Source: Corynebacterium cystitidis (GTDB taxonomy: Bacteria > Actinomycetota > Actinomycetes > Mycobacteriales > Mycobacteriaceae). From it: a stretch of 64,000 nt of DNA. The notes under the pieces are model-generated. The model saw only the letters and a program-made list of their open reading frames with translations, had not been told where the DNA came from and ran no database searches. Position 1 is the stretch's first letter. Each line of letters begins with the position of its first letter. Shown here piece after piece: positions 123 through 63,417 of this stretch. The position numbers and the translations under genes were made by a program. The stretch lies in the NCBI RefSeq assembly GCF_900187295.1, contig NZ_LT906473.1:434001-498000 (forward strand), read 5' to 3'.

Positions 123-2420
123 TTACGACGAATACTTCAGTGCTGCCCCCAGTTCAGGCCTACCTCTAATCCCCAGCTTCTTGTAGATATTGGTCAGATG
201 GTACTCCACGGTCTTCAACGACAGGGTGAGCTGGAGGGCAATCTCGCGGTTGGTAATGCCGTCGGCCGCCAACCGTGCCACCTGTTCCTCCTGAGCAGTC
301 AGCCCCAGGCGGCTGTGCACGTGGCCGCCCACACCGCTGAGGCGGCGTCCTTTATTGCACCGCTCCACCATGACATGGGCACCTAACTCTTCAAACAGGG
401 TGGATGCTCGGCGCAGGATATCGTCGGCACGCGAACGTCGACCAATGCGGCGCAGCGTGATGCCGTACTCGAACAGAACGCGCGTGGCGTAAACAGACAT
501 GGGGGAGTGCTCGATGGCATCGACGGCATCATCGAAGAGTCGAAGAGCAGGCTCCACCTCACCACGCTGCAACATGATCGTGGCCCGTGGCACTGCAAGA
601 CGCGCAAACCACGAGACCAAATCAACATCGGCAGTACGCTCCTCCGCAGCGGTTACCACCATGTCTGCCTCATCCAAACGCCCACTGCGCAGCAGAGTCT
701 GGGCGTAAACATCTTCCCACGGCCAAAACCCAGGCTGGTACGTGTCCGCCCGTTTCGCGGCAGAGGCAAGATCATCCGCCGCACTCACCGCCGAATTCAG
801 ATCCCACAAGGTCGACGAGACAAACAGGCGTGCCATCGCCGCCGGGATTTGCTGCAAAGCAAACGAGTCACTGCCGGCAGCCGCCCGGTTAACATAGGAC
901 CGGGCAAGACCTTGATTCCCTTCCATAGACGCAATCGAGGCACCCGTCCACAATAAAAACGGCTCCAGCAAGGCCACGCCGTGCAACTCGCAAGCAGCCA
1001 GCCCACGCTCCACAACTACCTTGGCCTCATCCCATTGGCCAAGCACAAACAGGGTGCGGGCAAGCAACGCGTCGCGCCAGATCCCCACAGAGAGAGCGCC
1101 ACCAGGAACCGGGCGAAGTTGCTCCCGGGCAGAGATCGGATCATCGTCGGCAAGCGCTACCCACCCACTAAACATCTTGAGCCGCTCGCGCGATACCGCA
1201 TGACGAAGTTCCGGGTTACGTTCTGGAAAGGTGCGGTTGATCAACCAGTAGGCGAAAGACCTGTGAATACGCGCCTCCTCGTAGCGCACTGATCCAGGCA
1301 TCGCCAAGCTCATCGTGTGCTGTGAACGCGCAGCCAAACCGCGCGGATTCCAGTTAGCCAACTCAAACATGGATCCGGCTGCAGACTGTTCAAGAGACTT
1401 TGTCACCGGCTCCAGATATGCCTGAGCCTGGTGGCGGTTACCGGTGTACAACGCAATATATCCGGTCAATGTGTCGCGGTGCTCGGCGTTGACAACCCCG
1501 GTGCAATCCTGCAGAAACAACTGCGCAGAACCCAACCCCAGATCGTCGGCATGTGCCTGCGCCTTCGACAGCAAGAGCTTCTCGCGGGCAATCGCAGTGG
1601 TAGCCCGCGGCGGGGTTGGTATAGAAGCCTGGGTAATGGCATTAAAGCGCGGGTCGCGGAAGAACGTCTCCTGCCCCATCTCATTCTTGCGCAGCTGAAC
1701 AATCCCGGCGCTAATCGCCTCCGAAAGATCCTCAGGGACAAGCGGACGGACATAGAGCGCCTCAATCGTCTCCGGCGATAAACCCTGAATGCGCCTGTTG
1801 AATTCGGTGTGCCAACTATCGGGAATGGTCAGGGCGGCGTTGGCCTGGGTCCAGTAATCGCGCGGGGCCACATCCAGCATCTCCGCGACGTAGTCAGGCC
1901 GCCCACGGGTGGCAAAATACAAGTCTTCAAGCAAAAGGGCGGGCAGCTTATGGCCCGTCAGCGCACGGGCAAACTGGTCAGTTTCGGGCAGAGTAAACGG
2001 AGGCAGGGTGATGATCTCGTCGGCAAGCACATGTAAGCGTTCCGACGACACCGTCGCCACAATCCGCACGCCCTCGCGTTTCGACGCCGTGACTAACTCG
2101 CGAAACGAGGTGTCGTCGGCCTGATCAAAGTCATGAATCAGCACGATGGCGTTAGCGGGCCGATCCTTCAACTGTGTAAGCAGCGCGCCGGGATAGTTCA
2201 TATCCCACGGCAAGACCGTGACCACCTGCGTATCTTCTGCGGGAAGCTGGGTGGCCAAGCCGTCTAAAAACCGCCGGGCACCCAGGCCTTGATCGATGGG
2301 CACAATGATGAGCCGCTGCGGGTGCGCCTCGAGGCTGCTAATAATGGTCCCAACCGCGTGCCTGCGCAAAATCCGGTCAACCATCTGAACCATGTACCCG
2401 CCCACCTGATCTTCACTCAT
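123..2420 (-). CDS. LuxR-family transcriptional regulator, BenR-like
   Basis: This is a 765-aa regulator read from the ATG at 2420; a TTG at 2432 is an alternative start. A LuxR/GerE helix-turn-helix closes the protein (about residues 700-760, containing TAQEEQVARLAADG, TNREIALQL and KTVEYHLTNIYKKLG), so DNA binding is well supported. The first 200 residues resemble the NTPase part of large MalT/LAL-type regulators, but the Walker A position reads IVPIDQGLGARRFL with no GKS or GKT, so ATP binding is doubtful. The middle is helical and TPR-like. The gene follows benE by 17 bp on the same strand and is probably co-transcribed. In C. glutamicum a LuxR-type activator, BenR, is encoded with benE, so control of benzoate use is my inference. 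Bases 1-122 hold no gene I can support. Confidence 0.85.
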   Translation of the reverse strand: MSEDQVGGYMVQMVDRILRRHAVGTIISSLEAHPQRLIIVPIDQGLGARRFLDGLATQLPAEDTQVVTVLPWDMNYPGALLTQLKDRPANAIVLIHDFDQADDTSFRELVTASKREGVRIVATVSSERLHVLADEIITLPPFTLPETDQFARALTGHKLPALLLEDLYFATRGRPDYVAEMLDVAPRDYWTQANAALTIPDSWHTEFNRRIQGLSPETIEALYVRPLVPEDLSEAISAGIVQLRKNEMGQETFFRDPRFNAITQASIPTPPRATTAIAREKLLLSKAQAHADDLGLGSAQLFLQDCTGVVNAEHRDTLTGYIALYTGNRHQAQAYLEPVTKSLEQSAAGSMFELANWNPRGLAARSQHTMSLAMPGSVRYEEARIHRSFAYWLINRTFPERNPELRHAVSRERLKMFSGWVALADDDPISAREQLRPVPGGALSVGIWRDALLARTLFVLGQWDEAKVVVERGLAACELHGVALLEPFLLWTGASIASMEGNQGLARSYVNRAAAGSDSFALQQIPAAMARLFVSSTLWDLNSAVSAADDLASAAKRADTYQPGFWPWEDVYAQTLLRSGRLDEADMVVTAAEERTADVDLVSWFARLAVPRATIMLQRGEVEPALRLFDDAVDAIEHSPMSVYATRVLFEYGITLRRIGRRSRADDILRRASTLFEELGAHVMVERCNKGRRLSGVGGHVHSRLGLTAQEEQVARLAADGITNREIALQLTLSLKTVEYHLTNIYKKLGIRGRPELGAALKYSS

Positions 2421-2437
2421 TTTTACCGCCAAGGCTG

Positions 2438-3658: not shown

Positions 3659-3830
3659 GAAACGCAACCTACCTCACCGCACGCAATAGTGTGGCCTGGG
3701 GCACTATTTTCGAACTTCTGGTTACACCAGTTTGGACGGCTGGGTGTTGAAACAGACGCGCACAGCCGTGCTGTTCGTCGTAAAGCGCGCAAGGCACTAG
3801 GATGAGTAGGACAAACAGGGGGTAGCTCGC

Positions 3831-3836
3831 TACAAT
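3831..3836 (+). promoter_or_regulatory. Candidate -10 box for clpX
   Basis: TACAAT fits the corynebacterial TANNNT -10 consensus and would give a leader of about 65 nt before clpX. The best -35 guess (TAGGAC at 3807-3812) is weak. The region between benE and clpX (3659-3908) otherwise holds only divergent upstream sequence. Confidence 0.4.
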
Positions 3837-3908
3837 CGGGCTACCCTGCGCTTACCGCAGCGTCGAGACAACACATAGTTTTAGAAGTAAAGCGAGAGTT
3901 TATACCTC

Positions 3909-5186: not shown

Positions 5187-5212
5187 CAACTCCCACCAGT
5201 CAGAGATAGTGC

Positions 5213-6439: not shown

Positions 6440-7453
<1,014 letters not shown>

Positions 7454-13193: not shown

Positions 13194-13968
13194 CATGTGG
13201 CTGGTCTACGACACTCTACGCGCTCAGCGCAACCGATGGATGATTAACCACTATATCGCTACCGCGCCCCGCCACGGCCTGCAGTGCACGCTCGTGCTTG
13301 CCGACGGGCCCCTGCCGGACGCGGTGCCGGAGCTGGCGCTTTTTCGCTGCGTGGCCCCCGCCCTGCGCGCGCAGCTAGAACAACGTGGTGTGGTCTGCCA
13401 CAACGGCACCGAACTGGCGGCCATTGCCAACGATAAGTGGGCCACCTACCAGTACTTCAAGGAGCGTGGTTGCGCGGTGATGGAGACCCAACTGGCAGCA
13501 GGGCACACGTTGGTACCACCGTTTGTTGTGAAGCCCCGTGACGGGCATGGCGGGGCCGGGGTGGAGTTGGTGAGAGAACCTGTGCAGCAGTCCTTGCGGG
13601 GTGCAGATGAGAACCTGATTGTGCAAGCCTTGGCAGATACTCCTGGTGTAGACCTGCGTGTTTACCTGCTTGGGGGCAGTGTGCAGGCAGCGATGTTGCG
13701 CCGGTCTAACACGAGCTTTAAGTCTAACTTCTCGCTCGGCGGGTCGGCGCAGGTTTACCCGCTTAACGACGATGCCCTGGCTGCCATCGCACAACTCGTG
13801 CAGGTGGCACCGATTCTGTCCCAGGGGCTGTGCGGGGTGGACTTCATCCGCCATCAGGGCAGGTGGGTGCTCAATGAGATCGAAGATGTGGTGGGTATGC
13901 GCATGCTTTATACGCAGACGCAGCTGGATATCGTCGATAAGCATCTGGCTTACCTGGCGCAGGCTTAA
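13186..13968 (+). CDS. ATP-grasp domain protein (second of a tandem pair)
   Basis: This protein is 260 aa from the ATG at 13186, overlapping the preceding gene by 8 bp; ATG 13195 is possible. It looks like a paralogous, shorter ATP-grasp enzyme. The start MWLVYDTLRAQRNRWMINHY mirrors the opening of its neighbour. PPFVVKPRDGHGGAGVELV carries the adenine/phosphate-contacting lysine and glycine loop. DLRVYLLGGSVQAAMLRRSN, LCGVDFIRHQGRWVLNEIED supply the rest, although the last metal-binding element is ENxxxx-like (LNEIEDVVGM) rather than ENNTR or EVN. The substrate is unknown. Translational coupling and similar architecture argue for a two-step or heteromeric ligase. Confidence 0.8.
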   Translation: MRSMWLVYDTLRAQRNRWMINHYIATAPRHGLQCTLVLADGPLPDAVPELALFRCVAPALRAQLEQRGVVCHNGTELAAIANDKWATYQYFKERGCAVMETQLAAGHTLVPPFVVKPRDGHGGAGVELVREPVQQSLRGADENLIVQALADTPGVDLRVYLLGGSVQAAMLRRSNTSFKSNFSLGGSAQVYPLNDDALAAIAQLVQVAPILSQGLCGVDFIRHQGRWVLNEIEDVVGMRMLYTQTQLDIVDKHLAYLAQA

Positions 13969-16262: not shown

Positions 16263-19200
16263 GTGGCTGATACCAGCGAAAATACCGAACAAACCGATAA
16301 TTCTGGCACAACAAACACAGCCGGAAACCCTGACCAGCCCGCAAAGAGGAGGGCTACCAAGAAGGCCAGCCGGAAGGCCTCGCGTAAGGCTACTACCAAC
16401 AAAGAAGGCCAGAAAAGGTCCGGTAAGTCAGCGAAGAAAACAGCGAAAAAGACCGCGAAGAAAACTGCGAAGAAAACAGCGAAAAAGACCGCGAAAAAGA
16501 CTGCGAGAAAGGCAACGCAAACACAGAGAGGCACTAGCGCGACTACCACTACGAGTGCGCTGCAAAGCTTCGACCGCTCTCAACTTGGCGACAAGACGCG
16601 TGTGTTCACGCTGGCAAAACAGCTGGGTCTGCCGTCGAAAGACCTGGTTATAGCCCTCAATGGGATGGGTCTGGTCAAAGTTGCTCAGTCTTCGCTGACC
16701 CGTGCTGAGGCTGAACAGCTCGTCGATGTGCTCCAGGGTACCGACGCGGATCCCAACGTGGACACAACCGTGCCCGACGACGTCGCCGCCGAAGCAGGCG
16801 AGAAGATTCGCGACCGCGTCCGTAAGGACGTGGCCAATGAGATCAACCAAATCCAAAACAAAGTTGATGCAGACCTCGCCTCATCAAAGGAAACGGACGG
16901 GGCCACCGACGATGAGCTATTGGCCGAAATAATTCCTGATGTCACCCCTCCACCGGCAGAAGAGTCCGCAGTGGACGCGCACGCGCCCGTCTTCAAGGCT
17001 CCGTCGCGCTCAGACCGCCGTCGCGCGCGTCGCACGAGCTCCAGCACCGGTGCTGAGCAACTGGACGGAAATCGCGCTGGCGACTCGGGTCCCGACAAGG
17101 ACCAGGGCAACCACCAGGGCAAAGACGAAAGCCGCGACGAGGCGCCCGAGGCAGAAGTTGATGTTATCGACGAGCCACGGGCCATCAAGGGCTCCTCGCG
17201 CCTAGAGGCACAGCGCCGTCGACGCAGCGAGAAGCGTGCGGAGGGGCGCAAGCGTTCCCGCATCGTGAGCGAGGCGGAATTTCTGGCGCGTCGTGAATCT
17301 GTCGAGCGCGCCATGATTGTGCGCGAACGTGAACGCCACGACCATCACGGACGCATCACTCAGGTGGGAGTACTCGAGGACGGGCTGTTGGTGGAGCATT
17401 TTGTCACCAGCGAGGAAAACACCTCAATGATTGGCAATATCTACCTCGGGCGCGTACAAAACGTGTTGCCGAGCATGGAAGCGGCGTTTATTGATATCGG
17501 CCAGGGCCGCAACGGAGTGCTCTATGCTGGTGAGGTTGACTGGAAAGCCGCTGGCCTTGGCGGACGGTCGCGTCGCATCGAAAACGCACTGAAGTCCGGC
17601 GACCAGGTGGTTGTGCAGGTCTCCAAAGACCCAATCGGGCAGAAAGGCGCGCGCTTAACGACGCAAATCTCCCTGGCTGGCCGTTACCTTGTGTATGTAC
17701 CGGGTGGCCGCAGTGCTGGTATTTCCCGCAAGCTGCCAGCACCTGAACGCAGCCGTTTGAAGGAAATCCTCAACAACGTTGTGCCCGGAAAGGGCGGTGC
17801 CATCATTCGTACCGCCGCCGAAGGGGTGTCGGAAGAGGCCATCGGCGCTGACGTCAACCGTTTGCACAACCAATGGGAAGCGATTCAGGAACAGGCGGCG
17901 AAGGAAAAGGCATCGAAGGGTGCTAAGCCTGTCACCCTGTACGAAGAGCCAAACATGCTGGTCAAGGTCGTACGCGACTTGTTCAATGAGGACTTTACAG
18001 AACTTGTTGTTGACGGCGAGAAGTCATGGAACGTGGTCTCCAATTACGTCTCGAAGGTCGCACCGGATCTCGAGGACCGTTTGGTCAAGTTTGATCGCGA
18101 TGAACACGACGGGGCGGACGCTTTCGCGGAGCACCGCGTCGATGAGCAGCTGGAGAAGGCACTGAGCCGGAAGGTGTGGCTGCCATCTGGTGGCTCGCTG
18201 GTCATTGACCGCACTGAGGCCATGACGGTGATCGACGTGAATACCGGAAAGTTCACCGGCTCTGGTGGTTCTCTCGAAGAGACCGTTACGTCTAATAACT
18301 TGGAGGCCGCCGAAGAGATCGTGCGACAGATGCGTCTGCGTGACATCGGTGGCATGATCATCGTTGATTTCATTGATATGATCCTGCCCGAGAACCAGGA
18401 ACTCGTCCTGCGTCGCCTGAAGGAGGCGCTGGGCCGCGACCGCACCCGCCACCAAGTTTCTGAGGTCACCTCGCTTGGCTTGGTGCAAATGACGCGTAAG
18501 CGCCTGGGTACCGGCCTTTTGGAAACGTTCTCGCACGAGTGTGAGGCGTGTGGTGGACGCGGCATCATCCTGAGTGATGATCCGGTCGAGCATACCTTCG
18601 AGCACGAGCCTCGACACCGCCGTAAGCCAGCGCGCAAGGCAGGGGAGCATCCCGCAGCTCAGGCCATGCGTGCGCGTGACGACGACAAGTCCTTTGAGGG
18701 CGTTGACGACACCTCGGGGGCTGAGGCTGGTGACAATGACACCGGTGACGCAGCCGATCAGCCACGATCATCGCGTCGCCGCAGGCGGAGCAACCGCGAC
18801 TTTGAAGAACTTGCAGATTCTGTGATCGGCACCAAGACTGACGCTGATACTGATACTGATAATGGTGACGGCGAAGAGGCAGATTCTGAGCAGCTCGAGG
18901 AGTCGGCCCGCCGCGCGTCGCGACGCCGCGGACGCCGTGGCCGCGGACGTGGTCGGGGCCGCCAACCAGAACAGTCCGACAATCTCGTGGACAACGTTGA
19001 CGATATTGACGATATTGACGATATTGACGATACTGACGATCCAGCAGTGGCAGACGACAGTGCAGGCACTATCGGAGAAGGTGAGAAAACCTACGAGGAA
19101 GCAGTCGCCGAGTTTGAGAAGTCTCCACGCCGGAAGCGCCGCACCCGTGGGAACTCGCGGTCAGATCACCGCCCACGCCGTGAAGATTTCCAACAGCCGG

Positions 19201-31586: not shown

Positions 31587-31827
31587 CCGTCCAACCTAAC
31601 GGCGCAGCAGGCGCCAGCGTCGTTACGCGTGGCCAGCCCGGCGGCGCGGTTGGCGTGAGGTGGATACGCGAGCTTATCGCGTGGTTACATCAACCCCACG
31701 ACGAATCTTGTCCCACTGGTTTTGCATGAGGAGGGGCCCAACTACCCAAAATCATTGGAGAGAGCTTAAGATGGGGAGCGAAAATCGACTGAATCCGTGC
31801 GTTCAGCTCTTTATGGAAGGTCTCTCC

Positions 31828-36151: not shown

Positions 36152-36183
36152 CGTTTGTGGCCGTGTCAACGCGGTTATCCACA
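36127..36183. promoter_or_regulatory. Inverted pair of perfect DnaA boxes
   Basis: TGTGGATAA (36127-36135) and TTATCCACA (36175-36183) are exact DnaA-box matches in opposite orientation, 39 bp apart, just before the comEA start at 36236. The first lies in the degV coding end. This could make comEA transcription respond to DnaA or the replication cycle. Confidence 0.5.
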
Positions 36184-36235
36184 GATATTTTTCGGGGCCC
36201 AGCGGGCAAGGCGTTCATCGTTTAGCGTCCAAGCC

Positions 36236-36913
36236 ATGGAGACTAAGCAGCGGATCACAGACCGCATCACAGACCGCATCACAGAACTAACCCGCCCCAC
36301 CGGTGAGGAAGACCTCCTCAACGTCACATACCCGCAGCCACGCTTCGACATCGGCTTAAAGCAGACCATCATCGTAATACTTGTGGCAGTGGTGGGGTTG
36401 GCGGGGTGGGTCGTCGTTAAGCCCTCGCCGAGCCCGCCGCCGAAGATGCCTGCCGGTGCCGGCTTAACGCACAGCCCGGTAGAAGATGCCACACAACCCC
36501 AGGAGGTGGTGGTTTCGGTGGTAGGTGCTGTCCACAATCCGGGGCTTGTCACATTGAGGGAGGGCGCGCGGGTCGCTGACGCGCTTGAGGCTGCAGGCGT
36601 GCAGGGCGAGGCGGACACGCTGGCCCTTAATCTGGCACAGGTGTTGGCGGACGGCCAGCAAATCGTGGTGCCACGGGTGGGTGAAACCCCGCCAGCTCAT
36701 GCGGTGGGCACAAGCGGAGATGGGGCCGTCTCGCTGAATAATGCCAGCGCTGACGAGCTGATGGAACTACCCGGGGTGGGGGAGGCGACTGCGGCGGCGA
36801 TCATCGCGCACCGCGAGGAGATCGGCGGGTTCAGCGACATTGCCCAGCTGCTCGATGTCAGCGGGATTGGGCCGGCGAAATTTGCCAAGCTCGAAGGCGA
36901 GGTTGTGCTGTGA
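36236..36913 (+). CDS. comEA: ComEA-like DNA-binding competence protein
   Basis: This 225-aa protein starts at ATG 36236. After a short cytosolic part with an ITDR repeat comes one membrane helix (QTIIVILVAVVGLAGWVVV) and a Pro-rich linker. An SLBB-like domain follows (VVSVVGAVHNPGLVTLREGA to DGQQIVVPRVGE). The C-terminus has the double helix-hairpin-helix of ComEA (NNASADELMELPGVGEATA, then SDIAQLLDVSGIGPAKFAKL). ComEA binds incoming double-stranded DNA outside the membrane and hands it to ComEC, encoded next. Natural transformation is not established for most corynebacteria. Upstream lies a DnaA-box pair. Confidence 0.92.
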   Translation: METKQRITDRITDRITELTRPTGEEDLLNVTYPQPRFDIGLKQTIIVILVAVVGLAGWVVVKPSPSPPPKMPAGAGLTHSPVEDATQPQEVVVSVVGAVHNPGLVTLREGARVADALEAAGVQGEADTLALNLAQVLADGQQIVVPRVGETPPAHAVGTSGDGAVSLNNASADELMELPGVGEATAAAIIAHREEIGGFSDIAQLLDVSGIGPAKFAKLEGEVVL

Positions 36914-36958: not shown

Positions 36959-38599
36959 GTGGTGCGCGAACTTCGATTAGTTCCGGCGGCACTGGTGGCG
37001 TGGACAGTCACGCTCGGGCTGCTCATTGGAGTGCCACGGGTGGGGCTGGTGGTTGTGGCCGTTGTGGTGGGTTTCGCGGTGGCGCGCCACGTGGGCCAGG
37101 CGATCGTCACAGCTGTTGTCGGCACGTGCGCCTGGGCGGTGACAAGCGCGCGGTTGGCCATGCGCCCGCCGCTTGACGACGAGTTTGTAGCCCAGCTTAC
37201 TGCCGCGCCGAAGCAGGTGGATTCGGGAAGTTGGCTGCTCACAGTGTGTATCGACGACTACCCCGGTACCGTAGCCGTGTTTACAGACGAGTTGCCAAAA
37301 CCAGAAGGTGGGGCCAGCGGGGCCATAGTGCACGTGGCTGGCACGTGGTCGGAGTCGGACCGGGTGAGCCTTGCGGGCCACACAATCAGCGGATCGGTAG
37401 AGCTTGTGGCCCCACCTACCGGGTTTCAGGGGTGGGCAGCACAGGTGCGCGCGACGTTTGCGGAATCCGTGGCAGCCCACGTGCCGGAGCATTCCCAGGG
37501 GCTGATCCCCGGCATGGTACTAGGCGATACCAGCCTGCAATCCGCTGCCGAACAAGACGCGTATATCGCCACCGGCCTGTCACACCTGTCGGCTGTGTCA
37601 GGGGCGAACGTGGCGATAGTGACTACAGCAGCCGCGATCGCCGCCCGACTGGTGGGGTTGGGGCTGCGTGGACAGGTGGCGGCCTCGGCTGTGGCTTTAG
37701 GCATCTTCGTGGGCCTGGTTGGCGGTGAGCCCTCAGTGCTGCGCGCGGCCATCACTGGGGTGGTGGGGTTAGTGGCGGTGCTGGCGTCGTCGGCAAGCGA
37801 ACCCATTCATGCGCTGTGCCTGGCCGTCATCGCGCTTGTTTTTCTCGATTCAGACATGGCCGCCAACTACGGATTCGCCCTGTCTGTGGCAGCGACCGCG
37901 GGCATCATTGTGCTGCATCCGCTGCTGTATCGCGCGCTGGCACCTACCGGCTGGCCTGATATTGTCGTTCGCGCGCTGGCTGTGGCGATCGCTGCTGACA
38001 TCGTCACCATGCCGATCATTGCTTTGATGGCCGGCGAAGTATCCCTGGTGTCGGTGGTGGCAAACGTGCTGGTCGCCCCCGCCACGCCGCCCGTGACGGT
38101 GCTGGGGCTTGTGGCGGTACTGCTCAGCCTGATCCCAGGCGGCCTGGAGCAGCTCGTCTACCTTGCGATCACGCCGCTAACGTGGTGGATCAACTTCGTC
38201 GGTACTCATCTTGCCCAGCTGCCCATCGCCACCGTGGAGGCCACACCGTGGTACACGCTGCTGGGCTACGGGTGGGTCATCGTCGGCTTCCTGCTGCGTC
38301 GCCCCCGCGCAACTGTGGCCGTGGCCGTGTGCGCCTACTTCGCAGCCAGCTGGCAGCCGCTGCCACCGGCGATTGACTTGGAGCGCGCCCCCGTCCACGT
38401 TGTTGACACCCTGCACGACACAGCGCGCGAGCAGGTTCCGCCCGGCATAGCCGTCATTATTGTGCTTGACGACGAAGGCCCTGCCGCCACCCGGCCCACC
38501 GTCACCACCGGGCGTGTTCCCGTGCTCTACCCCAACCGCGATGGGCCCGTCACCGTCCACATCGACGGCACCCAGCATGCCGCTGACGGCCGGTTCTAA
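36959..38599 (+). CDS. comEC: ComEC/Rec2-family DNA-uptake channel, no metallohydrolase domain
   Basis: This is a 546-aa polytopic membrane protein. Two GTG codons (36959, 36962) follow TAGGGG at 36949-36954, so leaderless initiation at 36962 is possible. The soluble OB-like region (about residues 60-150) precedes the Competence domain, seen as LIPGMVLGDTSLQSAAEQDA, ATGLSHLSAVSGANVAIV and GGEPSVLRAAITGVVG. About ten hydrophobic helices follow. The beta-lactamase-like domain found after the channel in Bacillus ComEC is absent, as in other short actinobacterial forms. ComEC carries single-stranded DNA across the cytoplasmic membrane. Confidence 0.9.
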   Translation: MVRELRLVPAALVAWTVTLGLLIGVPRVGLVVVAVVVGFAVARHVGQAIVTAVVGTCAWAVTSARLAMRPPLDDEFVAQLTAAPKQVDSGSWLLTVCIDDYPGTVAVFTDELPKPEGGASGAIVHVAGTWSESDRVSLAGHTISGSVELVAPPTGFQGWAAQVRATFAESVAAHVPEHSQGLIPGMVLGDTSLQSAAEQDAYIATGLSHLSAVSGANVAIVTTAAAIAARLVGLGLRGQVAASAVALGIFVGLVGGEPSVLRAAITGVVGLVAVLASSASEPIHALCLAVIALVFLDSDMAANYGFALSVAATAGIIVLHPLLYRALAPTGWPDIVVRALAVAIAADIVTMPIIALMAGEVSLVSVVANVLVAPATPPVTVLGLVAVLLSLIPGGLEQLVYLAITPLTWWINFVGTHLAQLPIATVEATPWYTLLGYGWVIVGFLLRRPRATVAVAVCAYFAASWQPLPPAIDLERAPVHVVDTLHDTAREQVPPGIAVIIVLDDEGPAATRPTVTTGRVPVLYPNRDGPVTVHIDGTQHAADGRF

Positions 38600-38615
38600 C
38601 GCTAGACTTGCATCC

Positions 38616-39977: not shown

Positions 39978-40630
39978 GCGTGATCAACCCGGCCGATCTT
40001 GGGGCCATCATTGTTGTCAACCTAGTAGGTGCGGCCTCACCTGGCCCCGACATCATTTTGATCACCCGCACTGCCACACGGTCGCGTCGTCACGCGCTCG
40101 CCACCGTCGCCGGCATCCAAGTCGGGGTACTGATGTGGTGCACGCTCACCGTACTTGGGGCGGCAGCCCTGCTCACCGCGTTTCCGTGGGTGCTGGAATT
40201 CATCCAAATCATCGGCGGGGCCTGGCTGATGTACCTCGGCGCAAGCTCCGTCCGCGGCGGATTGATTGAGCGCCACAACCCGCCACGCGACACTTCAGAA
40301 GCCGAAGCCCGCCTCGGACGGTTGCGCCATTCCTTTGCCAAGGGCTTAACGACGAACCTCTCCAACCCGAAGATCGTGTTATTCTTGGCGGCGCTTGTGG
40401 CACCACTGCTGCCCCCGAACCCGTCGTGGGCAGTGTCCATGATCGTGATTGTGGCGTTGTGGATTCCGTCGATGCTGCTCCAAGCCGGGCTGGCCACGCT
40501 CGTGTCCACCCATGCGGTGCGCAACCGCTTGCTGCGCGCCGGGCCATATATCGACATCGCCGCCGGGGTCTTCTTCGTCATCGCAGCGGTAGTACTGGTG
40601 TGGCGCGGGGTGGCGGGGCTGCTTAACTAG
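39974..40630 (+). CDS. LysE/RhtB-family amino-acid exporter
   Basis: This 218-aa membrane protein has about six hydrophobic helices. The start has the family pattern NLVGAASPGPDIILITRTAT, with the G-x-x-x-GPD element. A central FAKGLTTNLSNPKIVLFLAA segment, typical of LysE/RhtB, follows. These proteins export lysine, arginine, threonine or homoserine lactone type substrates. The specific substrate cannot be read here. The start is GTG 39974, overlapping the ankyrin gene stop. No LysG-type regulator is adjacent. Confidence 0.9.
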   Translation: MSVINPADLGAIIVVNLVGAASPGPDIILITRTATRSRRHALATVAGIQVGVLMWCTLTVLGAAALLTAFPWVLEFIQIIGGAWLMYLGASSVRGGLIERHNPPRDTSEAEARLGRLRHSFAKGLTTNLSNPKIVLFLAALVAPLLPPNPSWAVSMIVIVALWIPSMLLQAGLATLVSTHAVRNRLLRAGPYIDIAAGVFFVIAAVVLVWRGVAGLLN

Positions 40631-42176: not shown

Positions 42177-42779
42177 TCAGGCCCAGTTGAACATGCTGCG
42201 CAAACGATTCGCCACCACGTTGAAGCGACGCTGCGGAAACAAAATGCCGCGGCGGGACACCTCAATCTCAGGCACGATCATCGTTTTGTCGAGGCGGAGC
42301 CAACACCGTGCACTGTCGCCGCACCACTCGCCACTGCCGATCTCAAGCCAACTGCTATCGGCAGAATGCTGCGAGTTCGACGAAATTAACAAGCCCAACA
42401 CTTTATGCTGCTGGCGACCAATGACCAGCATGGAGCGTTCCTGCGGTGGGTGCGAAGGCACTGTCACCCACACAACCTCGCCCGGTTCGGCATGCCCATC
42501 GAGGTCAGACGAGTAGTAGATGGAGCGAGCCAGCCGAGCCGTTGGTTCCACACGCAGCGACCGGGCAACACGTGGGCGCGAGGCAGTATTATTACCGCCC
42601 AGTCGCTGATTCAGCTTGGCAAGCCCAAGATCCAGATCGTCCGTCTCGGTGGCAGCTTTTCTTTCGCGGGCGCGGCGACGACGCTCTTTTCGGCGCAGAA
42701 AGAACCGGGAGGGGGTGCTCTTGCCCGTCGCCTCACTCGCGTCGATGCTTCTCGACTGGCGAAGACGCAGAATGCTCAT
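42177..42779 (-). CDS. PemK/MazF-fold protein without partner antitoxin
   Basis: This 200-aa protein has a basic, disordered first third (FFLRRKERRRRARERKAATE) followed by a PemK/MazF-type domain: YYSSDLDGHAEPGEVVWVTV, then RSMLVIGRQQHKVLGLLISS, SSWLEIGSGEW and CWLRLDKTMIVPEIEVSRRG. The MazF-fold core is clear, but the protein is twice the usual toxin length and no small antitoxin gene is adjacent. A similar gene sits beside lepA in mycobacteria and corynebacteria, so it is probably a conserved housekeeping member rather than a mobile toxin. RNase activity is untested here. Confidence 0.75.
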   Translation of the reverse strand: MSILRLRQSRSIDASEATGKSTPSRFFLRRKERRRRARERKAATETDDLDLGLAKLNQRLGGNNTASRPRVARSLRVEPTARLARSIYYSSDLDGHAEPGEVVWVTVPSHPPQERSMLVIGRQQHKVLGLLISSNSQHSADSSWLEIGSGEWCGDSARCWLRLDKTMIVPEIEVSRRGILFPQRRFNVVANRLRSMFNWA

Positions 42780-42972
42780 AAGTATGTGGTCCAGATTTAG
42801 TCCCGGTACGGTGGGTTTACATTCACAACTGTAACGTTTAGATCACGCACCCCACAATCAACCAAAAGGAGGACCTCCCTTAACGGGGGTAATAGGGGGC
42901 GGGCGGTCGTCGTTACGCGTGCGCGACCAGCGTTTCGTGCACAGGTGACACCACAGGGTAGAGTCTGATTTT

Positions 42973-44829
42973 ATGGCTAGGAAATCGGGAAACTTCGCCC
43001 AGTCAACGTTCACGGATCCCGCCCGGATCCGAAATTTCTGCATCATTGCGCACATCGACCACGGGAAATCCACCCTGGCTGACCGCATCCTGCAGCTGTC
43101 CAACGTAGTGGAAGCACGCGACATGCGCGACCAATACCTGGACAACATGGACATTGAGCGCGAACGTGGCATCACCATCAAGGCGCAAAACGTGCGCCTG
43201 CCATGGGTGCCACACACCGGTGACCACGCCGGCGAAGAAATCGTGCTGCAGATGATCGATACCCCCGGCCACGTCGACTTCTCCTACGAGGTCTCCCGCG
43301 CGCTCGAGGCATGTGAGGGCGCGATTTTGCTTGTCGACGCAGCCCAGGGCATCGAGGCGCAAACACTGGCGAACCTGTATATGGCGATTGATAAGGGCCT
43401 GGAGATCATCCCGGTGCTCAACAAGATTGACCTGCCGGCGGCCGACCCGGAGAAATACGCCTTTGAGATCGCCAATATCATCGGCTGCGAGCCGGAAGAC
43501 GTCCTGCGGGTGTCAGGCAAAACCGGTGAAGGTGTGGAAAAGCTGCTGGACGTGGTGGTGGACATGGTGCCCGCGCCGGATAACCCCAACGGTGCCGACG
43601 CGCCCGCCCGCGCCATGATTTTCGACTCCGTCTACGACACCTACCGCGGCGTGGTCACCTATATCCGCATGGTCGACGGCACCCTGAAAAAGGGCCAGAA
43701 ACTACGCATGATGAACACCGGCACCACCCTTGAACTGCTGGAAATTGGTGTGGTCTCGCCCACCGCCACCCCGGTGGCTGGCCTGGGCCCCGGCGAGGTG
43801 GGCTACCTGATCACCGGCGTGAAAGACGTGCGCGAAACCAAAGTCGGCGACACCGTCACCAGCGACTCCAAAGGCGCGGAAGAGCCACTGCAGGGCTACG
43901 AGGACGTCAAACCCATGGTGTACTCCGGGCTGTTCCCCGTCAGCCAGGAAGACTTCCCGGCGTTGCGCGAGTCTTTGGAAAAGCTGCAGCTTAACGACGC
44001 ATCGCTGACCTGGGAGCCAGAAACGTCAGTCGCGCTAGGTTTCGGTTTCCGCTGCGGCTTTTTGGGCCTGTTGCACATGGAGATCACCCGCGACCGCCTC
44101 GAGCGCGAATTCGACCTGGACCTGATCTCTACCGCGCCGAGTGTGACCTACCGGGTTGTGGCCGAAGACGGCACCGAACAGTACGTGCACAATCCCAGCG
44201 ACTGGCCGGAGGGCAAACTGCAGTCCGTGTACGAGCCGATTGTGAACATGACGATCATCGTGCCTGCCGAGTTTGTCGGGCCAACCATGGAGCTGTGCCA
44301 GAAAAAGCGGGGCCAGATGAAAAACATGGACTACCTGTCTGAAGACCGCGTTGAGCTGCGCTACATCATGCCACTAGGTGAGATCATCTTTGATTTCTTC
44401 GACATGCTGAAATCGCGTACCAAAGGCTACGCATCGCTGAACTATGAGGAAGCCGGAGAGCAAGAAGCGAACCTGGTGAAGGTGGACATCCTGCTGCAGG
44501 GTGAGCCGGTAGACGCGTTCTCCGCAATCGTGCACCGCGACAACGCCCAGTGGTACGGCAACAAAATGACCACAAAGCTCAAAGAGCTCATCCCGCGCCA
44601 ACAATTCGAAGTGCCGGTGCAGGCAGCGATCGGCTCCAAGATTATTGCGCGTGAAAACATCCGCGCGCTGCGCAAGGACGTGCTCTCCAAGTGCTACGGC
44701 GGCGATATTTCACGCAAGCGCAAACTGCTGGAGAAGCAGAAGGCCGGTAAGAAACGCATGAAATCCATCGGCTCAGTCACCGTGCCACAAGAAGCGTTCG
44801 TGGCAGCGCTGTCCACCGACGAGGAGTAG
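42973..44829 (+). CDS. lepA: Elongation factor 4 (LepA)
   Basis: LepA (618 aa) is the ribosome-associated GTPase that back-translocates or aids 30S biogenesis. G motifs: [18 protein letters not shown] (G1), ITIKAQNV region (G2), [12 protein letters not shown] (G3) and NKIDLP (G4). The LepA-specific C-terminal domain ends with [26 protein letters not shown] (42959-42964) lies 8 nt before the ATG, so it is probably leaderless. It is divergent from the MazF-like gene across about 190 bp, the conserved actinobacterial layout. Confidence 0.98.
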
Positions 44830-45559: not shown

Positions 45560-46275
45560 GGGAAAACTCAGGGAGGGTGCAGGTAATCTAGAAGCAGCCG
45601 CCGCGCCGAAACTGTTCAGCTTCAGCACGAACTCCGTTAACGCCCGCTGCCTCTCGAGCGCCTCGCTAAAAGACTCCTGCTCTTCCGGCTCGAAAAAGCG
45701 TCCACCTCCATCACTGCCCGGTACATGTCAGCTCCCGTCGTTGACGCACGCGTGCCGACGATCCCTGTCGTAGTCGCCCCCACCGCCAGGTAGACCGGTG
45801 TGCCCGCGGGAATGCCCAGCTTGTGAGTAGTGGTGCCGCCAAGCAAGCCCTGTGAGATCTGGGGCAGCGCACTGGGCTCGATACCAGTAGCCGCTACGAC
45901 CTCGGGGTGCACCTGCCACCGGCGAAGCGTTACTCGTCGCTGATTGCTCGTTGCCCGTCCACTCCTCCCACCGCGGTAGCGGATTAAGTTCTGCATCTGG
46001 CCGGTCAGCGTCACCGCATCGTAAGGCCCCGGTAAATCCTTGGTCACAGCGGCTACGGCGCGCAACCATTCGTTCGGGTCTTGTTCCACCACGCCGCCGT
46101 CAGCTGTCACGGTGGGGTAGGGGGCGCTCGTCGTTAAGCGCGACGAACCGCTAACCAGCGCAGCTTTCGCGCTGACCCCTGACGCGCCGAAGAACCCGAC
46201 TCCGCCCGGCCCAAGTGGAGCAGATGCCAACACGTTCGATGCCCCCGCCGGCAAGTTGGCGGTGTCGGGCGCCAC
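45560..46275 (-). pseudogene. Decayed FGGY-family carbohydrate kinase
   Basis: Remnants of an FGGY sugar kinase (xylulokinase-like) are visible on the minus strand. The N-terminal piece ASGVSAKAALVSG resembles the first nucleotide-binding element but has lost the usual DxGT-type start. APYPTVTADGGVVEQDPNEW and YDAVTLTGQMQNLI follow. The frame then passes almost directly to PEVVAATGIEPSALPQISQG and IPAGTPVYLAVGATTTGIVG, so central regions are missing. After EVDAF a -1-type frameshift is needed to continue as EPEEQESFSEALERQ. It lies behind mutarotase and ribokinase genes, suggesting a pentose locus that has lost this step. Confidence 0.7.
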
Positions 46276-46306: not shown

Positions 46307-47044
46307 CTAGTTTGCGGCGGCGGTCACCGTCATCACGATGGTCGCTGTCTCACCGCCGGGCAGCAACACTCCCTCCGCGTTGTCGCCCAGCAGCGCAGGC
46401 TCGACGCAGACGAACTTGTCCCATTCACCTTCGCCGAGGTCGTCGATGCGTGCGCCGGCTTCTGCGCCGGGATTCCACAACACCGTCGAGTCGGTACCCT
46501 CAGCAGAAATGGTGAGCCTGCGGTTGGCATCGCGCACCGTGACCTGAGGCGCTGCTAGGGCGATCCTGTCCGTCAGGCCCGAGAAGGTGAAGTCGCCGCG
46601 GTGCACCGCCTTGTCGTGGTCCACACGGTCCCACACATTGACCCCGTCGATACCATCGACCACCACATCCTCTACAGCGCTGACCGCGAAGTAAGGGTGG
46701 AACGCCAGCTGAATCTCACGCACGGTGTCCCCCGTGTTGGTACACGACAGTTCAAAACGCCAACCGTCGGCGTTTGCTTCGTCGCCAACAGGGGTGGCGG
46801 AGAAGCGGAGGGCCAAGTGGTCGTCGTTAAGCGTGCCCGTGGTGCCGTCCATCTCCCACACGCTGGACCGCGCCCAGCCGTGCTGCTTCTCGCCGAGGAA
46901 TTTGGCGAACCACGGCGCGATGATCGGCAGGCCGCCGCGCACAGGTGCACTGCCGTCGAGGGCGGTGGCGGACGAGACGAAAAAGAGATCGCCGGTGGAA
47001 GTAGGGGCGGACAAGACATGGGCACCAAAATCGAGGATTCTCAT
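46307..47044 (-). CDS. D-hexose-6-phosphate mutarotase / aldose 1-epimerase-like
   Basis: This 245-aa beta-sandwich protein of the galactose-mutarotase superfamily has SGSAPVRGGLPIIAPWF-like sequence (visible as SAPVRGGLPIIAPWFAKFLG), which matches the YeaD/hexose-6-phosphate mutarotase group, and a catalytic Glu candidate in EKQHGWARSSVWEM or near LAFHPYFAVS. It interconverts anomers of sugar phosphates. TAAGCT (47051-47056, minus) stands 6 nt before the ATG, a leaderless start. It lies between ribokinase and the broken kinase, all read leftward, fitting a sugar-use locus. Confidence 0.85.
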   Translation of the reverse strand: MRILDFGAHVLSAPTSTGDLFFVSSATALDGSAPVRGGLPIIAPWFAKFLGEKQHGWARSSVWEMDGTTGTLNDDHLALRFSATPVGDEANADGWRFELSCTNTGDTVREIQLAFHPYFAVSAVEDVVVDGIDGVNVWDRVDHDKAVHRGDFTFSGLTDRIALAAPQVTVRDANRRLTISAEGTDSTVLWNPGAEAGARIDDLGEGEWDKFVCVEPALLGDNAEGVLLPGGETATIVMTVTAAAN

Positions 47045-48065: not shown

Positions 48066-48326
48066 ATGATCGCCGAATGGATCGCCGCCGAGTTCGCCGC
48101 CGGCCGCACCGACCTGCAAACCCTGCTGGACACCTCCCCGCACCCGCGCCCGGCTCTGCGCGCGGTGGCCGAGGATTGCGGCTTTCAGCTCGTCGACGGG
48201 CAGGTCTCGCTTAACGACGACCACACCGGCGCAACGTGGTTCGTGGAGGGAGTTGAATTGGTGTTCTATCCCGGCGCGCGCACACGTGCTGTGGAGCACG
48301 CTTCTGAGCCAGCCGCACAGCGATGA
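48066..48326 (+). CDS. Hypothetical protein
   Basis: This is an 86-aa soluble protein from ATG 48066, with TACGGT 7 nt upstream suggesting leaderless translation; GTG 48057 overlaps that box. It reads MIAEWIAAEFAAGRTDLQTL, then LRAVAEDCGFQLVDGQ and GATWFVEGVELVFYPGARTR. I recognise no family, signal peptide or membrane segment. Its stop overlaps the ATG of thpR by 4 nt (ATGA), so the two are translationally coupled, which supports it being a real gene. Confidence 0.6.
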   Translation: MIAEWIAAEFAAGRTDLQTLLDTSPHPRPALRAVAEDCGFQLVDGQVSLNDDHTGATWFVEGVELVFYPGARTRAVEHASEPAAQR

Positions 48327-50396: not shown

Positions 50397-51575
50397 TTAG
50401 GCCACGGCGGGCGCCAGTATCTTCTCTACTGGGGAGGATCTGGCCAGCGGGTGTTGGTTGAGCGCGAGCTTCCCGCCGGGCAGTATTCTGTACGGTCTGC
50501 CACGGATGTTACGGTACCGCTGCTTCGCCCCGGCTTTGCCGTTGTGATAAGAACACAGCAGACTTTCGTTAGACAGGAGGCTGAGTCCGCCGCGCGAGTA
50601 CGGCACGTTGTGGTTGATCTCGCAGTAGGCTGCGGGCACCGAGCAGTCCATCCCGGCACACGTGGTTTGGGTGGCTTCCAGCAGGCAGCGGTCCTTGTAG
50701 GTGCCGTGCCGGGCGGTGGCCTTGTCAACGGCCGCCGCAGGGACCGGTTTCTCTCCGTGTGTCGCGCGGCGGCGGTGTTCGTCGTTAAGCTCCTTGCGGG
50801 TGTTGACAATACAGCGCCCTGTGCCGATCGTGATCGCCCCATGCATGGGGGTCACGCCAATGAATTCGGCGATCGGGTCAAGCTTTTTGCGCACCAAGTC
50901 CATACCGGTCATGACGGCGCCGCTGGTGGTTTGAACGAGCACGTCGGCGCCTTCGCCGCTCAGGATGCGTTCGATGTCCTCGAGCGCGACTAGCACTTTG
51001 ATGCGGTATGTGGGCGCGCTGGTGCCGGAAAAGAACGTATCGACGAGCGCTTGCGCCATCGTGGTGTCATGTTCTGCGGCAACAGCGCGGGCGGTAGCTT
51101 CAATCTCGCGGATGGAGGCGGAGTCCGCACACAAGGTCAGCGTGGATTTCGTGGTGCCTTCGTGGTGGGTGACCTTGACGGAGGTCTCCCGTTTCCGCTT
51201 GGGCTTATCGACGTTTAACGCCGCCAACTTTTCTTTGGCGTGTGCCCGAAAGTCGTGGTGGTTGCCGTTGAAGCGTGTGAGGTCATGGCGTAACGCCCAG
51301 GATTTCGACTTGTCGTAGAGCTTGTCGACGAACCCCTCGATGGCCTCCAACCTGTCGAAACCGAGCCTATTGTTGGTGGCGTGGTCGCGGGCACCGCGCT
51401 GGCGGCGGTGGGATTTGGTGGGGCCGTAGTAGATGTTGTGGAGTCTGACGATGCGGTCGAGGTGGGTTGGTTCTGCGCCAGCGTCGATCAGCTCGCGGGG
51501 TGCGAGTTCGGCGGCGTCGGCAAGCATGGTCATGGCTGCCGAGCCGGACGCGATCAAGTACTGGCGAAGGTTCAT
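50397..51575 (-). CDS. DUF222/HNH endonuclease protein
   Basis: This 392-aa protein starts at ATG 51575, with TAATGT (51583-51588, minus) 7 nt upstream, so it is likely leaderless. The first two thirds are a helical DUF222-type region containing TLTLCADSASIREIEATARA. The C-terminus has an HNH nuclease domain: CAGMDCSVPAAYCEINHNVP, YSRGGLSLLSNESLLCSYHN, with the paired cysteines and the EINHN catalytic His. Such 13E12-repeat-like proteins are present in several copies per actinobacterial genome, sometimes in mobile contexts, and their role is unclear. Two DnaA-box-like sequences lie upstream. Confidence 0.85.
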   Translation of the reverse strand: MNLRQYLIASGSAAMTMLADAAELAPRELIDAGAEPTHLDRIVRLHNIYYGPTKSHRRQRGARDHATNNRLGFDRLEAIEGFVDKLYDKSKSWALRHDLTRFNGNHHDFRAHAKEKLAALNVDKPKRKRETSVKVTHHEGTTKSTLTLCADSASIREIEATARAVAAEHDTTMAQALVDTFFSGTSAPTYRIKVLVALEDIERILSGEGADVLVQTTSGAVMTGMDLVRKKLDPIAEFIGVTPMHGAITIGTGRCIVNTRKELNDEHRRRATHGEKPVPAAAVDKATARHGTYKDRCLLEATQTTCAGMDCSVPAAYCEINHNVPYSRGGLSLLSNESLLCSYHNGKAGAKQRYRNIRGRPYRILPGGKLALNQHPLARSSPVEKILAPAVA

Positions 51576-57228: not shown

Positions 57229-58146
57229 ATGGATGCAGGCGCGCTGGTGTAGCACGGTAACCAAGACTTCGGGTTAGTCCGCGTTCCTATTCCAGAACTC
57301 GGTCCGGATGAGTTGATCGTCGAGATGACCGCCGCAACGATCTGCGGGTCGGACCGGCACACCGTGTCTGGAAGTCGATCGGCGCCAAGGCCGTCCATTC
57401 TGGGGCACGAAGGGGTTGGAACCGTGATCGAGTCGCGGCGCGACGTGTGTGAGCCGGGCCAGCGCGTGGTGTTTTCTGTAGCCGCAGTCTGTGGGCGCTG
57501 CGACAACTGCCAGCGTGGGCTAACCGCGAAGTGTCGCTCGGTTGCTAAGGCAGGTCACGAACGTTTCGACGGGCCCTGGCCTTTGTCAGGAACCTTCGCT
57601 ACTCACATGCATGTGGTGAAAGGTCAAAAAGCTTCTGTCGTGCCGGACACTGTGTCAGATGCGGTGGCGGCAACGGCAGGATGCGCCGTGGCAACAGTCA
57701 TGGCAGTTATGGAGGCGGCAGGGCCCGTTGCTGGCCGCACCGTGTTAGTCAACGGTGTGGGCATGCTTGGGCTTGTCGCTGTGGCGGACCGTCTTGCACC
57801 CACCGCGGTCGGCCTTCACGCCGATGTTGTTTTAGAACTTTCGGGTGTCCGCCGGGGCGTGATCGACGCGTTGGGGACACTGAACGTCGGCGGTACCGCG
57901 GTCTTGGCGGGTTCGGTGATTCCGACTGCGGAGGTGCCACTAGACCCCGAATGGATCGTCCGTGGTTGGCGCACTGTGACAGGTGTCCATAATTATGAGC
58001 CGCATCACCTCGACCAAGCCGCGGAGTTCCTCGCTGAGGTGGATCTGCCCTGGGATGCCATCTTGGCTAGCCCGATCACTTTGGAGGAGTTGCCCGCTGC
58101 TTTTACGCGTAACGACGATCACCTACGCGTCGTCGTTAAGCTCTAA
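57229..58146 (+). pseudogene. Zinc-type alcohol dehydrogenase with in-frame TAG and internal deletion
   Basis: This frame gives a medium-chain dehydrogenase. Its natural ATG (57229) is followed after six codons by TAG at 57250-57252, probably a former Trp codon in ALVxHGN. Beyond it come VRVPIPELGPDELIVEM, the zinc Cys/His in TICGSDRH and LGHEGVG, and structural-zinc cysteines in CGRCDNCQRGLTAKC. The cofactor domain reads VNGVGMLGLVAVADRLAPTA and jumps to ADVVLELSG, so about 40 residues of the Rossmann fold are missing. It resembles the phosphonate-associated dehydrogenases (TIGR03366). A TTG at 57313 could restart translation but would not restore function. Confidence 0.75.
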
Positions 58147-60931: not shown

Positions 60932-60994
60932 AGGTTCTCCTTTGGGAGTAAATGTTTGGGATTAAATGTATGAAGGGAGAGGTGTGTTGTAGAA

Positions 60995-61906: not shown

Positions 61907-62247
61907 TCCTCATCTTGTGTGTATCTGTGTTGAGCTGATTAATTTCTCTTACGCTAACTTACTGTCACTTCAATACTTCCTCAGCTTTCATTGAATATGC
62001 TTACCTGAAGGATCATGTCCCACACTAGCCTGAATGTATGGACAATTCATGGCTGGCGGGTGTGAACTTTTTTTCTTGAGGCGGCTTCGTAGGTTGGACG
62101 CTTCTTGTGCTTTGCCTTGGAGGGGCCTAATTGTTCGTGGAAAAATCTATGAAACTCTCCCACCCTCTAAGTTGTCAAGACATTATTGCCTGTTTTGGAT
62201 TATCATCGCGCTAGACGCACTCACAATTCGGTAGATAAAGAGGATGT
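61907..62247. other. Divergent galU-ugd intergenic region with possible ugd promoter
   Basis: No gene is supported. The sequence is AT-rich with long T runs. TTGTCA (62172-62177) and TTGGAT (62195-62200), 17 bp apart, could be the ugd promoter. AAAGAGGA close to the ATG is its ribosome binding site. The open frame at 62034-62234 has no features of a real gene. Confidence 0.45.
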
Positions 62248-63417
62248 ATGAAAATTGTAGTTTTTGGACTCGGGTATGTAGGTCTCGCCAACGCTGTCTT
62301 GCTCGCATCGCGCCACGAGGTGGTGGCGGTTGACCTCATCGAAGAGAAAGTGGATCAGGTAAACAATCATATTTCTCCAATCGCTGACACGGAGGTGACT
62401 CAGGCTTTTGAAAAGGAAACACTCAATCTGCGTGCTACAACCGATGCGGCAGACGCTCTGGAAGGTGCTGATGTCACTTTCATCGCAACACCTACTGATT
62501 ACAAAGTAGATTCAGACAGCTTTGACACATCGTCCGTAAGGGCCGTGATCCAGCAGATTTCGGAACTGGCCCCAGATACCATCATCGTGATCAAGTCCAC
62601 CGTTCCTATTGGTTTCACCGAGCAGATCAGCCGGGAATTCCCTACGTTGAATCTGGTGTTTAGTCCGGAGTTTCTGCGTGAGGGTAAGGCGCTGTTTGAT
62701 AATCAACATCCCTCCCGGATCATCGCTGCTTCACGCAACCGTGAGCATGCTGCCACCGTTGCTCAACTTCTGGCTGACAACGCGGTTGACGATGATGTTC
62801 CAGTCCTACTGACTGATACAACTGAGGCAGAAAGTATCAAACTGTTCTCAAACACCTATTTGGCAATGCGGGTAGCTTATTTCAATGAGTTGGATACCTT
62901 TGCCCGTATCAAAGGGCTTAACCCGGAGCAGATTATTGAAGGCGTGTGCCTTGATCCCCGGATTGGAGACCACTACAACAACCCGAGTTTTGGCTACGGC
63001 GGCTACTGTCTGCCGAAGGATACCCAGCAGTTACTCGCAAACTATGATGGGACGCCACAGACGTTGATCACAGCGATCGTTGAGGCAAACCGTGTTCGGA
63101 AGAAGTTTGTGGCGCATGCTGCGTTGCGTTCCCAACCGTCTGCAGTGGGCGTCTACCGCTTGACCATGAAGTCCGGTTCGGATAACTTTCGCAGCGCAGC
63201 GATCCATGACGTGATGAAGATGGTCAAGGACGCTGGCGTTTCCGTTGGTGTGTATGAACCATCGCTTGACGACGGGTCTGTGGATGGGTATCCGGTGTAC
63301 GCGGATTTTGATACTTTTGCCCGCGACCACGACGTGATCCTTGCGAATCGGTGGGATGCAGAGCTGGAGCCTTATGCGAATAAGGTGCTGACTGCAGATC
63401 TGTACTCTCGCGATTGA
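62248..63417 (+). CDS. ugd: UDP-glucose 6-dehydrogenase
   Basis: Ugd (389 aa) oxidises UDP-glucose to UDP-glucuronate with two NAD+. The Rossmann start is MKIVVFGLGYVGLANAVLLA. FIATPTD, VIKSTVPIGFTEQ and FSPEFLREGKALFD are family signatures. The catalytic Cys254 lies in FGYGGYCLPKDTQQL. The length and the C-terminal UDP-binding domain are those of the short HasB type rather than the longer eukaryotic form. A strong hairpin terminator follows. It lies between galU and a hyaluronan-synthase-like glycosyltransferase gene, the enzyme set of a glucuronate-containing capsule. Confidence 0.96.
   Translation: MKIVVFGLGYVGLANAVLLASRHEVVAVDLIEEKVDQVNNHISPIADTEVTQAFEKETLNLRATTDAADALEGADVTFIATPTDYKVDSDSFDTSSVRAVIQQISELAPDTIIVIKSTVPIGFTEQISREFPTLNLVFSPEFLREGKALFDNQHPSRIIAASRNREHAATVAQLLADNAVDDDVPVLLTDTTEAESIKLFSNTYLAMRVAYFNELDTFARIKGLNPEQIIEGVCLDPRIGDHYNNPSFGYGGYCLPKDTQQLLANYDGTPQTLITAIVEANRVRKKFVAHAALRSQPSAVGVYRLTMKSGSDNFRSAAIHDVMKMVKDAGVSVGVYEPSLDDGSVDGYPVYADFDTFARDHDVILANRWDAELEPYANKVLTADLYSRD

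Follow-up and report, generated by a model that had tools for sequence, protein, structure and literature searches.

A dispersed word with lineage-specific dialects in Corynebacterium genomes is a candidate DNA-uptake sequence

Why does a short, non-palindromic word recur about once per kilobase in a stretch of Corynebacterium chromosome? The stretch, hereafter the window, is the whole 64,000 nucleotides analysed, bases 434,001-498,000 of the single-contig Corynebacterium genome G000 (3,011,567 bases). The word is GCKTNNCGACG, with the core GCTTNNCGACG, and is referred to below as D1; one exact 11-mer form is GCTTAACGACG. An initial annotation of this DNA had likened the word to a DNA-uptake or recombination-hotspot sequence. 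The analysis reported here suggests that it is probably a DNA-uptake sequence, by which Corynebacterium would recognise its own DNA in natural transformation; with it we infer competence, a receptor and an uptake bias as the force behind the accumulation of sites. This reading fits the data best and draws on the density and spread of the sites, same-site switching between dialects, conservation of the fixed bases and the presence of ComEA, ComEC and Tad genes. To our knowledge, words for self-recognition in DNA uptake have so far been credited to only two Gram-negative families.

The over-representation is real and stronger than had been claimed. GCKTNNCGACG matches the window 84 times, on both strands between positions 120 and 63274, against a mean of 2.37 in shuffled sequence, and none of 100 shuffles reached the observed count. 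Position 3 is T in 58 of these matches and G in 26, the latter having been put too low at about a dozen. The matches at 18915 and 18916 are an overlapping pair, a self-complementary place scored on both strands. The 11 exact copies of GCTTAACGACG that had been reported were all recovered (shuffle mean 0.05), and for four of the 11-mers the third-order Markov expectation was 0.03-0.12. A site-free gap annotated between 58.2 and 63.26 kb was found at 58.14-63.26 kb (5.1 kb); a second, placed at 3.04-8.18 kb, does not exist, as it contains sites at 3163, 3776 and 5159 (GCTT) and at 7387 (GCGT). The window, at 1.31 sites per kb, is denser than the whole genome at 0.84 per kb. The genome holds 2,529 copies of GCKTNNCGACG (1286 forward and 1243 reverse) compared with 141 of the reversed pattern (88 and 53), an 18-fold excess, and 235 exact copies of GCTTAACGACG (110 and 125) compared with two of its reversal (2 and 0). 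Confinement to the window, or counts close to a Markov or codon-preserving expectation, had been named as outcomes that would speak against the motif; what was found is enrichment throughout the genome.

The anatomy of the word was resolved in 464 kb of G000, consisting of the window and 20 further stretches with 434 sites in total, which also served for the codon and polarity analyses. The core is sharply defined: GCTTNNCGACG occurs exactly 309 times and with G at position 3 in 125 cases, while every other single-base change gives 0-37 copies. Spacer length is equally strict, with 309 copies at two bases and 6-28 at each of the other lengths from 0 to 6. Within the free pair G is rare (2%) at the second place, position 12 is A in 72% of sites, and the two bases 5' of the core favour G (55%) and then C (46%). 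Flank statistics by site class covered five classes (66, 218, 71, 44 and 18 sites) and left out two classes of 7 sites. A at +12 was the commonest base in all five; C at +16, +19 and +22 was commonest among the intergenic sites and in each of the three larger coding classes, and inconsistent in the class of 18. Because the same bases are commonest in intergenic and larger coding classes, codon effects do not account for most of the C-rich 3' flank. Sites in C. pilosum have the same 3' flank, with A at +12 in 93% of 30 sites.

Protein selection had been set aside as an explanation in the initial annotation, and a codon control bears this out. When synonymous codons were shuffled in 399 predicted genes, a mean of 20.7 sites arose (maximum 33 in 100 shuffles), compared with 365 observed. 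A single reading frame, x-Leu-x-Asp, accounts for 218 of the 365 genic sites, and 243 point along their gene. Site density was 0.97 per kb in predicted genes and 0.75 per kb outside them. The simple gene caller covered 81% of the sequence and missed real genes such as holA (38460-39548), so that the outside-gene figures include missed genes and the intergenic count is an upper bound.

The fixed bases of the word are maintained between species. The window was compared with the homologous region of C. pilosum, at 78% identity, to which 21 of the 84 sites align. All eight fixed bases were retained at 17 of the 21, compared with 12.6% of 3,583 control places shifted by whole codons and thus matched in phase. 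Identity at the fixed bases was 95% (control 74%), and at the two free bases 79% (control 83%). In the reverse comparison, 23 of the 30 sites in the C. pilosum region align, of which 17 were kept, 3 carried one mismatch and 3 carried more. The kept window sites include one between genes, GCGTAACGACG at 42908..42918 on the minus strand; its counterpart in C. pilosum is GCTTTACGACG, in which position 3 and one free base have changed and the eight fixed bases remain. This site and a second GCGTAACGACG at 31618..31628 (minus strand) had been annotated as intergenic copies of the exact motif; both do lie outside predicted genes, but both are GCGT forms. Across its genome C. pilosum carries 1305 and 1380 D1 sites on the two strands, against 75 and 95 for the control.

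D1 was then counted in related genomes, as had been suggested. Among 242 Corynebacterium genomes it reached at least three times the reversed control in 171 and two to three times in 8; the remaining 63 gave less. Word statistics in seven low-D1 genomes revealed a related word, GCTTNNCGATG (D2), present in G001 and G004. D2 is strong in 14 of the 242 genomes, with 490-1,337 copies, and favours C at +13 (83% of 92 sites). Its lower edge is not sharp: four further genomes lacking D1 enrichment hold 159-223 copies, and several D1-rich genomes hold 118-165 (165 in G181, 159 in G195), compared with about 40-80 elsewhere. If a genome is required to exceed 200 D2 copies and to reach twice the control for D1, G024 alone carries both. 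A third dispersed, asymmetric word, TGACGNCGCG (D3; mostly ATGACGYCGCG), is unrelated to the other two and occurs 1,144 times in the 2.03 Mb of G012, against a control of 50; none of 53 other genomes exceeded 2.3 times its control for D3. Overall, a clear word was found in 186 of the 242 genomes and none in 45, the rest being weak. In 15 of the 45, samples of 40-160 kb were screened for other words and no clear dispersed word emerged, although samples of 40-60 kb can miss a rare one. Beyond the genus, 95 genomes of 30 other genera (among 101 genomes of the family) showed no enrichment when scored for GCTTNNCGACG only, the highest ratio being 1.74. In a tree of 20 genomes that took in 8 of the 14 genomes strong in D2, built from up to four proteins with some genes missing and with the root not fixed, a fully supported split placed the eight D2 genomes on the same side as G042, which has no word, and G032, in which D2 is weak. 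The tree fits a single origin of D2, and in these genome sequences the dialects are lineage-specific and congruent with the phylogeny.

Homologous codons of Tad-region genes in 7 D1 and 8 D2 genomes reveal how the dialects replace one another. The codons homologous to D1 sites read as D2 in 26 of 319 pairs and still as D1 in one, with 2 of 4,161 for shifted controls. Starting from D2 sites, D1 genomes carried D1 in 26 of 182 pairs and the unchanged site in 5 (shifted controls 2 of 2,465). Owing to shared ancestry the pairs are not independent, and the 26 D1-to-D2 switches stem from 9 of 57 distinct D1 sites; 24 of them leave the amino acid encoded at the changed base unaltered. Since old sites were rewritten in place, the recogniser of the word appears to have changed its specificity while existing sites were rewritten.

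Both comEA and comEC had been reported in the window, and both were found, adjoining each other on the plus strand. The comEA gene (36155..36913) encodes SLBB and helix-hairpin-helix domains (PF12836, 3.7e-20; PF10531, 1.9e-9; matches to TIGR01259 and TIGR00426), and comEC (36959..38599) encodes the DNA channel (PF03772, 1.3e-40); the two are candidate uptake machinery with a presumed link to the word. Elsewhere in G000, TadA is encoded at 2,368,900-2,369,934, followed by Flp, TadE-like and TadF-like pilin genes. Profile matches within the genus were found in 241 of 242 genomes for ComEC, 239 for TadA and 241 for a Tad minor pilin, and ComEA was found in all 30 genomes examined. Presence or absence of ComEC, TadA or Tad minor pilins was rejected as the reason for having a word, as these genes are nearly universal. 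The Pfam model for TadE, PF07811, matched none of the 242 genomes, a result that is uninformative because this 43-position model matches only 1 of 14 control genomes.

The properties of the word call for a specific recogniser with a preference that can shift: it is frequent and shows hardly any polarity, its fixed bases are maintained, it was confined to one genus of those searched, and lineages have rewritten it. Accumulation driven by uptake is favoured because the uptake receptors of Neisseriaceae behave in this way and because transformation through Flp/Tad pili and ComEC is known in Micrococcus luteus. In such a mechanism, a surface DNA receptor, perhaps a Tad/Flp minor pilin or ComEA, would recognise GCKTNNCGACGA together with its C-rich 3' flank in double-stranded DNA, whichever way the word is oriented in the genome. 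Transport of the bound DNA to ComEC would fall to the Tad pilus and ComEA, and RecA would recombine it. Fragments bearing the word would be taken up preferentially, so that alleles with the word would convert those without it until about one copy per kb had accumulated. Once the receptor of one group had shifted from CGACG to CGATG, gaining a new preference immediately 3' of the core, many sites would have been rewritten in place and others lost or gained.

The nearest parallels are found in the two Gram-negative families. Like the Corynebacterium word, the uptake signal sequence (USS) of Pasteurellaceae has a degenerate flank. The USS is likewise a core word in high copy, AAGTGCGGT being present about 1,300 times in Haemophilus influenzae (PMC5217627). 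The Corynebacterium word differs in its C-rich 3' flank, and whereas USS pairs often form terminators (PMC5217627), its sites do not. The DNA uptake sequences (DUS) of Neisseriaceae, recognised by the receptor ComP, also resemble it: they are short asymmetric words in thousands of copies, with related dialects congruent with the phylogeny and one genome that carries two dialects (PMC3630211). Unlike DUS, the word studied here belongs to Actinobacteria rather than Proteobacteria, has the core GCTTNNCGAYG without the 5'-CTG-3' core of DUS, accompanies Tad/Flp pilus and ComEA genes rather than a ComP-bearing pilus, and has a putative role in uptake. Within Actinobacteria, M. luteus likewise has comEA, comEC and tad genes; its transformation requires comEC, and Flp pili are part of the apparatus (PMC4322843). 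The term 'uptake sequence' is absent from the main text of that paper, and M. luteus lay outside the word search performed here. In the main text of a survey of spaced motifs, Corynebacterium is named only for CRISPR repeats (PMC5217627). No report of such a word in Corynebacterium was found in the open-access literature, a scope that excludes most subscription papers and all bioRxiv preprints.

Several observations weigh against uptake. A literature search found no data on competence, or on a preference for word-bearing DNA, in these species. Sites are unevenly spread, with 9 to 30 per 20-kb stretch, and in contrast to the USS they are not concentrated at terminators (434 sites). The 45 wordless genomes retain ComEC (45), TadA (44) and a minor pilin (45), and G042 has intact-looking Tad genes and ComEA, yet no dispersed word in 160 kb. 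Wordless genomes have lower TadA profile scores (median exponent 123 compared with 139; area under the curve 0.90 for 44 compared with 179 genomes, after dropping 7 word-bearing and 1 wordless genome with weak or absent TadA), but this separation is confounded by phylogeny and 15 wordless genomes score ordinarily. Divergent or split ComEA was seen in 6 of 9 wordless genomes examined and also in 4 of 20 word-bearing ones (G005, G055, G106 and G128). Phylogeny alone could account for the differences in TadA score and ComEA. Partial pilin alignments from 20 loci (15 Flp, 16 TadE-like and 12 TadF-like sequences) contained no residue that cleanly tracks the dialect, in a comparison of low power because the D2 genomes lie together on the tree. 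Finally, D3 is unrelated in sequence and is not easily explained by one drifting receptor.

The word could instead be the binding site of an abundant chromosome-organising protein, nucleoid-associated or acting in condensation or segregation, and kept by selection on chromosome structure. Sites throughout the genome on both strands, with fixed bases conserved at homologous places including one between genes, would suit such a protein. We nevertheless regard this as unlikely: some 2,500 asymmetric sites far exceed the parS, matS, SlmA or Noc site systems, a hand count of the exact forward copies found no clustering at the origin or terminus, and the rewriting of many sites within a lineage would come at a high cost to a structural protein. 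Site spacing is near exponential (coefficient of variation 1.13). One stretch noted separately spans 10.2 kb devoid of any site (genome 2,507,080-2,517,298; L049:7080-17298), across a predicted protein of 1,791 residues and its small neighbours; by eye, a similar-looking gene with small neighbours adjoins the Tad locus (L048).

Less probable still is a recognition site for a DNA methyltransferase or a system of self/non-self defence, its enrichment giving protection as with HIP1. A fixed asymmetric word with genus-limited, lineage-specific versions would fit. Restriction, however, would be expected to cause avoidance of its sites, whereas an 18-fold excess over the reversed control is seen here, and an architecture of two fixed blocks set 2 bases apart, with a flank graded out to +22, is not known from any common restriction-modification class. 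In 40 kb, each of two phages of the C. glutamicum group carries a single D1 site, which would bear on phage depletion only if the dialect of their hosts were known. Most matches from a plasmid search were proA-like and due to a gene of the window, with no Corynebacterium record among the matches listed.

The recombination-hotspot half of the initial proposal turns on polarity. HIP1 of cyanobacteria, Chi and KOPS are all highly over-represented short words, HIP1 being palindromic and Chi and KOPS polar; the Corynebacterium word is asymmetric and at most slightly polar. A Chi-like site regulating a RecBCD, AddAB or AdnAB-type nuclease would be just such an asymmetric, frequent word with species-specific versions. 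Chi words favour the leading strand. For an origin near position 1, the leading to lagging ratio of the 434 sites was 238:196, 232:202 and 235:199 for a terminus at 0.90, 1.35 and 1.51 Mb, respectively, three values being used since the weak GC skew does not fix the terminus. Even this slight excess is partly expected from the tendency of genic sites to point with their gene. By hand count, the first half of the genome holds 54 of the 110 exact forward copies. Polarity was measured in G000 only, and equal forward and reverse totals in the 171 genomes carry no information on it, as a polar word would give them too. Replication polarity is weak or none, and none of the papers found on AdnAB and Chi in Corynebacterium was on such a site, judged by titles or the opening of abstracts. 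A Chi-like role is thus disfavoured and very improbable, and of the two parts of the initial proposal the uptake sequence remains the best reading. Association with terminators, common for the USS and not treated here as essential to an uptake sequence, was also rejected, opposite pairs closer than 60 bp being at about chance level (12 among 434 sites). A by-product of codon, dipeptide or mutational bias that involves no recogniser is likewise disfavoured and has next to no chance of being correct, since the shared reading frame and the preserved amino acids that would favour it are outweighed by the codon-shuffle control, the sites between genes and in other frames, the strict spacer, conservation far above the phase-matched control, and relatives of similar GC content, such as G001 at 58.7%, that stay at control level for D1.

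We lean, if only slightly, towards a broader proposal: that Corynebacterium has sequence-specific uptake through the Tad/Flp pilus, with at least two related dialects acting as recombination barriers between groups, a system of DNA self-recognition in Gram-positive bacteria arisen independently of Neisseriaceae and Pasteurellaceae and spanning about three quarters of the genus. If this is true, DNA discrimination evolved again in Actinobacteria with different machinery, many Corynebacterium species would be predicted to be naturally transformable, with the relevant DNA tag named, and dialect switches within one genus would offer a place to find the receptor and to study the origin of a recombination barrier. 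Even under another function, a recogniser is needed for a word that is maintained in 2,529 copies and belongs to a general type clearly represented in 186 of 242 species.

The 11 exact copies of GCTTAACGACG in the window are read in several ways. Three encode L-N-D-D (13761..13771 and 48209..48219 on the plus strand, 46822..46832 on the minus strand) and one L-N-D-E (50780..50790, minus). Three encode L-T-T with a TTA codon (17653..17663 and 40344..40354, plus; 46129..46139, minus), that at 40344 being identical in C. pilosum. The copy at 29853..29863 (plus) is antisense to a gene reading S-S-L-S, again with TTA, and is identical at the homologous place in C. pilosum. TTA is therefore used at four exact sites, one more than had been counted; the codon readings given earlier for 13761, 17653, 40344, 29853, 36412 and 58131 were all correct. 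The gene reads V-V-V-K at 36412..36422 (minus), within comEA, and the same reading applies at 58131..58141 (minus), which lies 24 bp from an opposite GCGTAACGACG at 58107. The remaining copy, at 43989..43999 (plus), lies within lepA and is identical in C. pilosum. Near lepA, positions 42177-42779 (minus) give a weak PemK/MazF-like match (9.9e-5, 22.9 bits), just below the Pfam cut-off of 23.1.

Other repeated words were seen in individual genomes. In G127 (contig C29, L117-L121), words of the CCGTCGNYGTCGG type may, judged by eye, be repeats within the coding sequence of an Asp-rich protein and not a motif of the whole genome, and hits in G042 look by eye like a local repeat. In G206 (L132-L133), at 74% GC, CTCGGCGA occurs 43 times in 40 kb against 5.4 expected, which may reflect codon usage. 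Contig C1 of G232 holds 64 copies of the palindrome (G)ATGCACGTGCAT(C), which was present once in each of 5 of 53 other genomes and absent from 48. Among the places listed, these copies lie at about 195-404 kb and 2,157-2,278 kb, with one cluster in L140, and mostly form clusters of 2 to 9 copies about 80-150 bp apart. The CACGTG centre of this palindrome recalls parS, and we take the clusters to be perhaps partition-type arrays.

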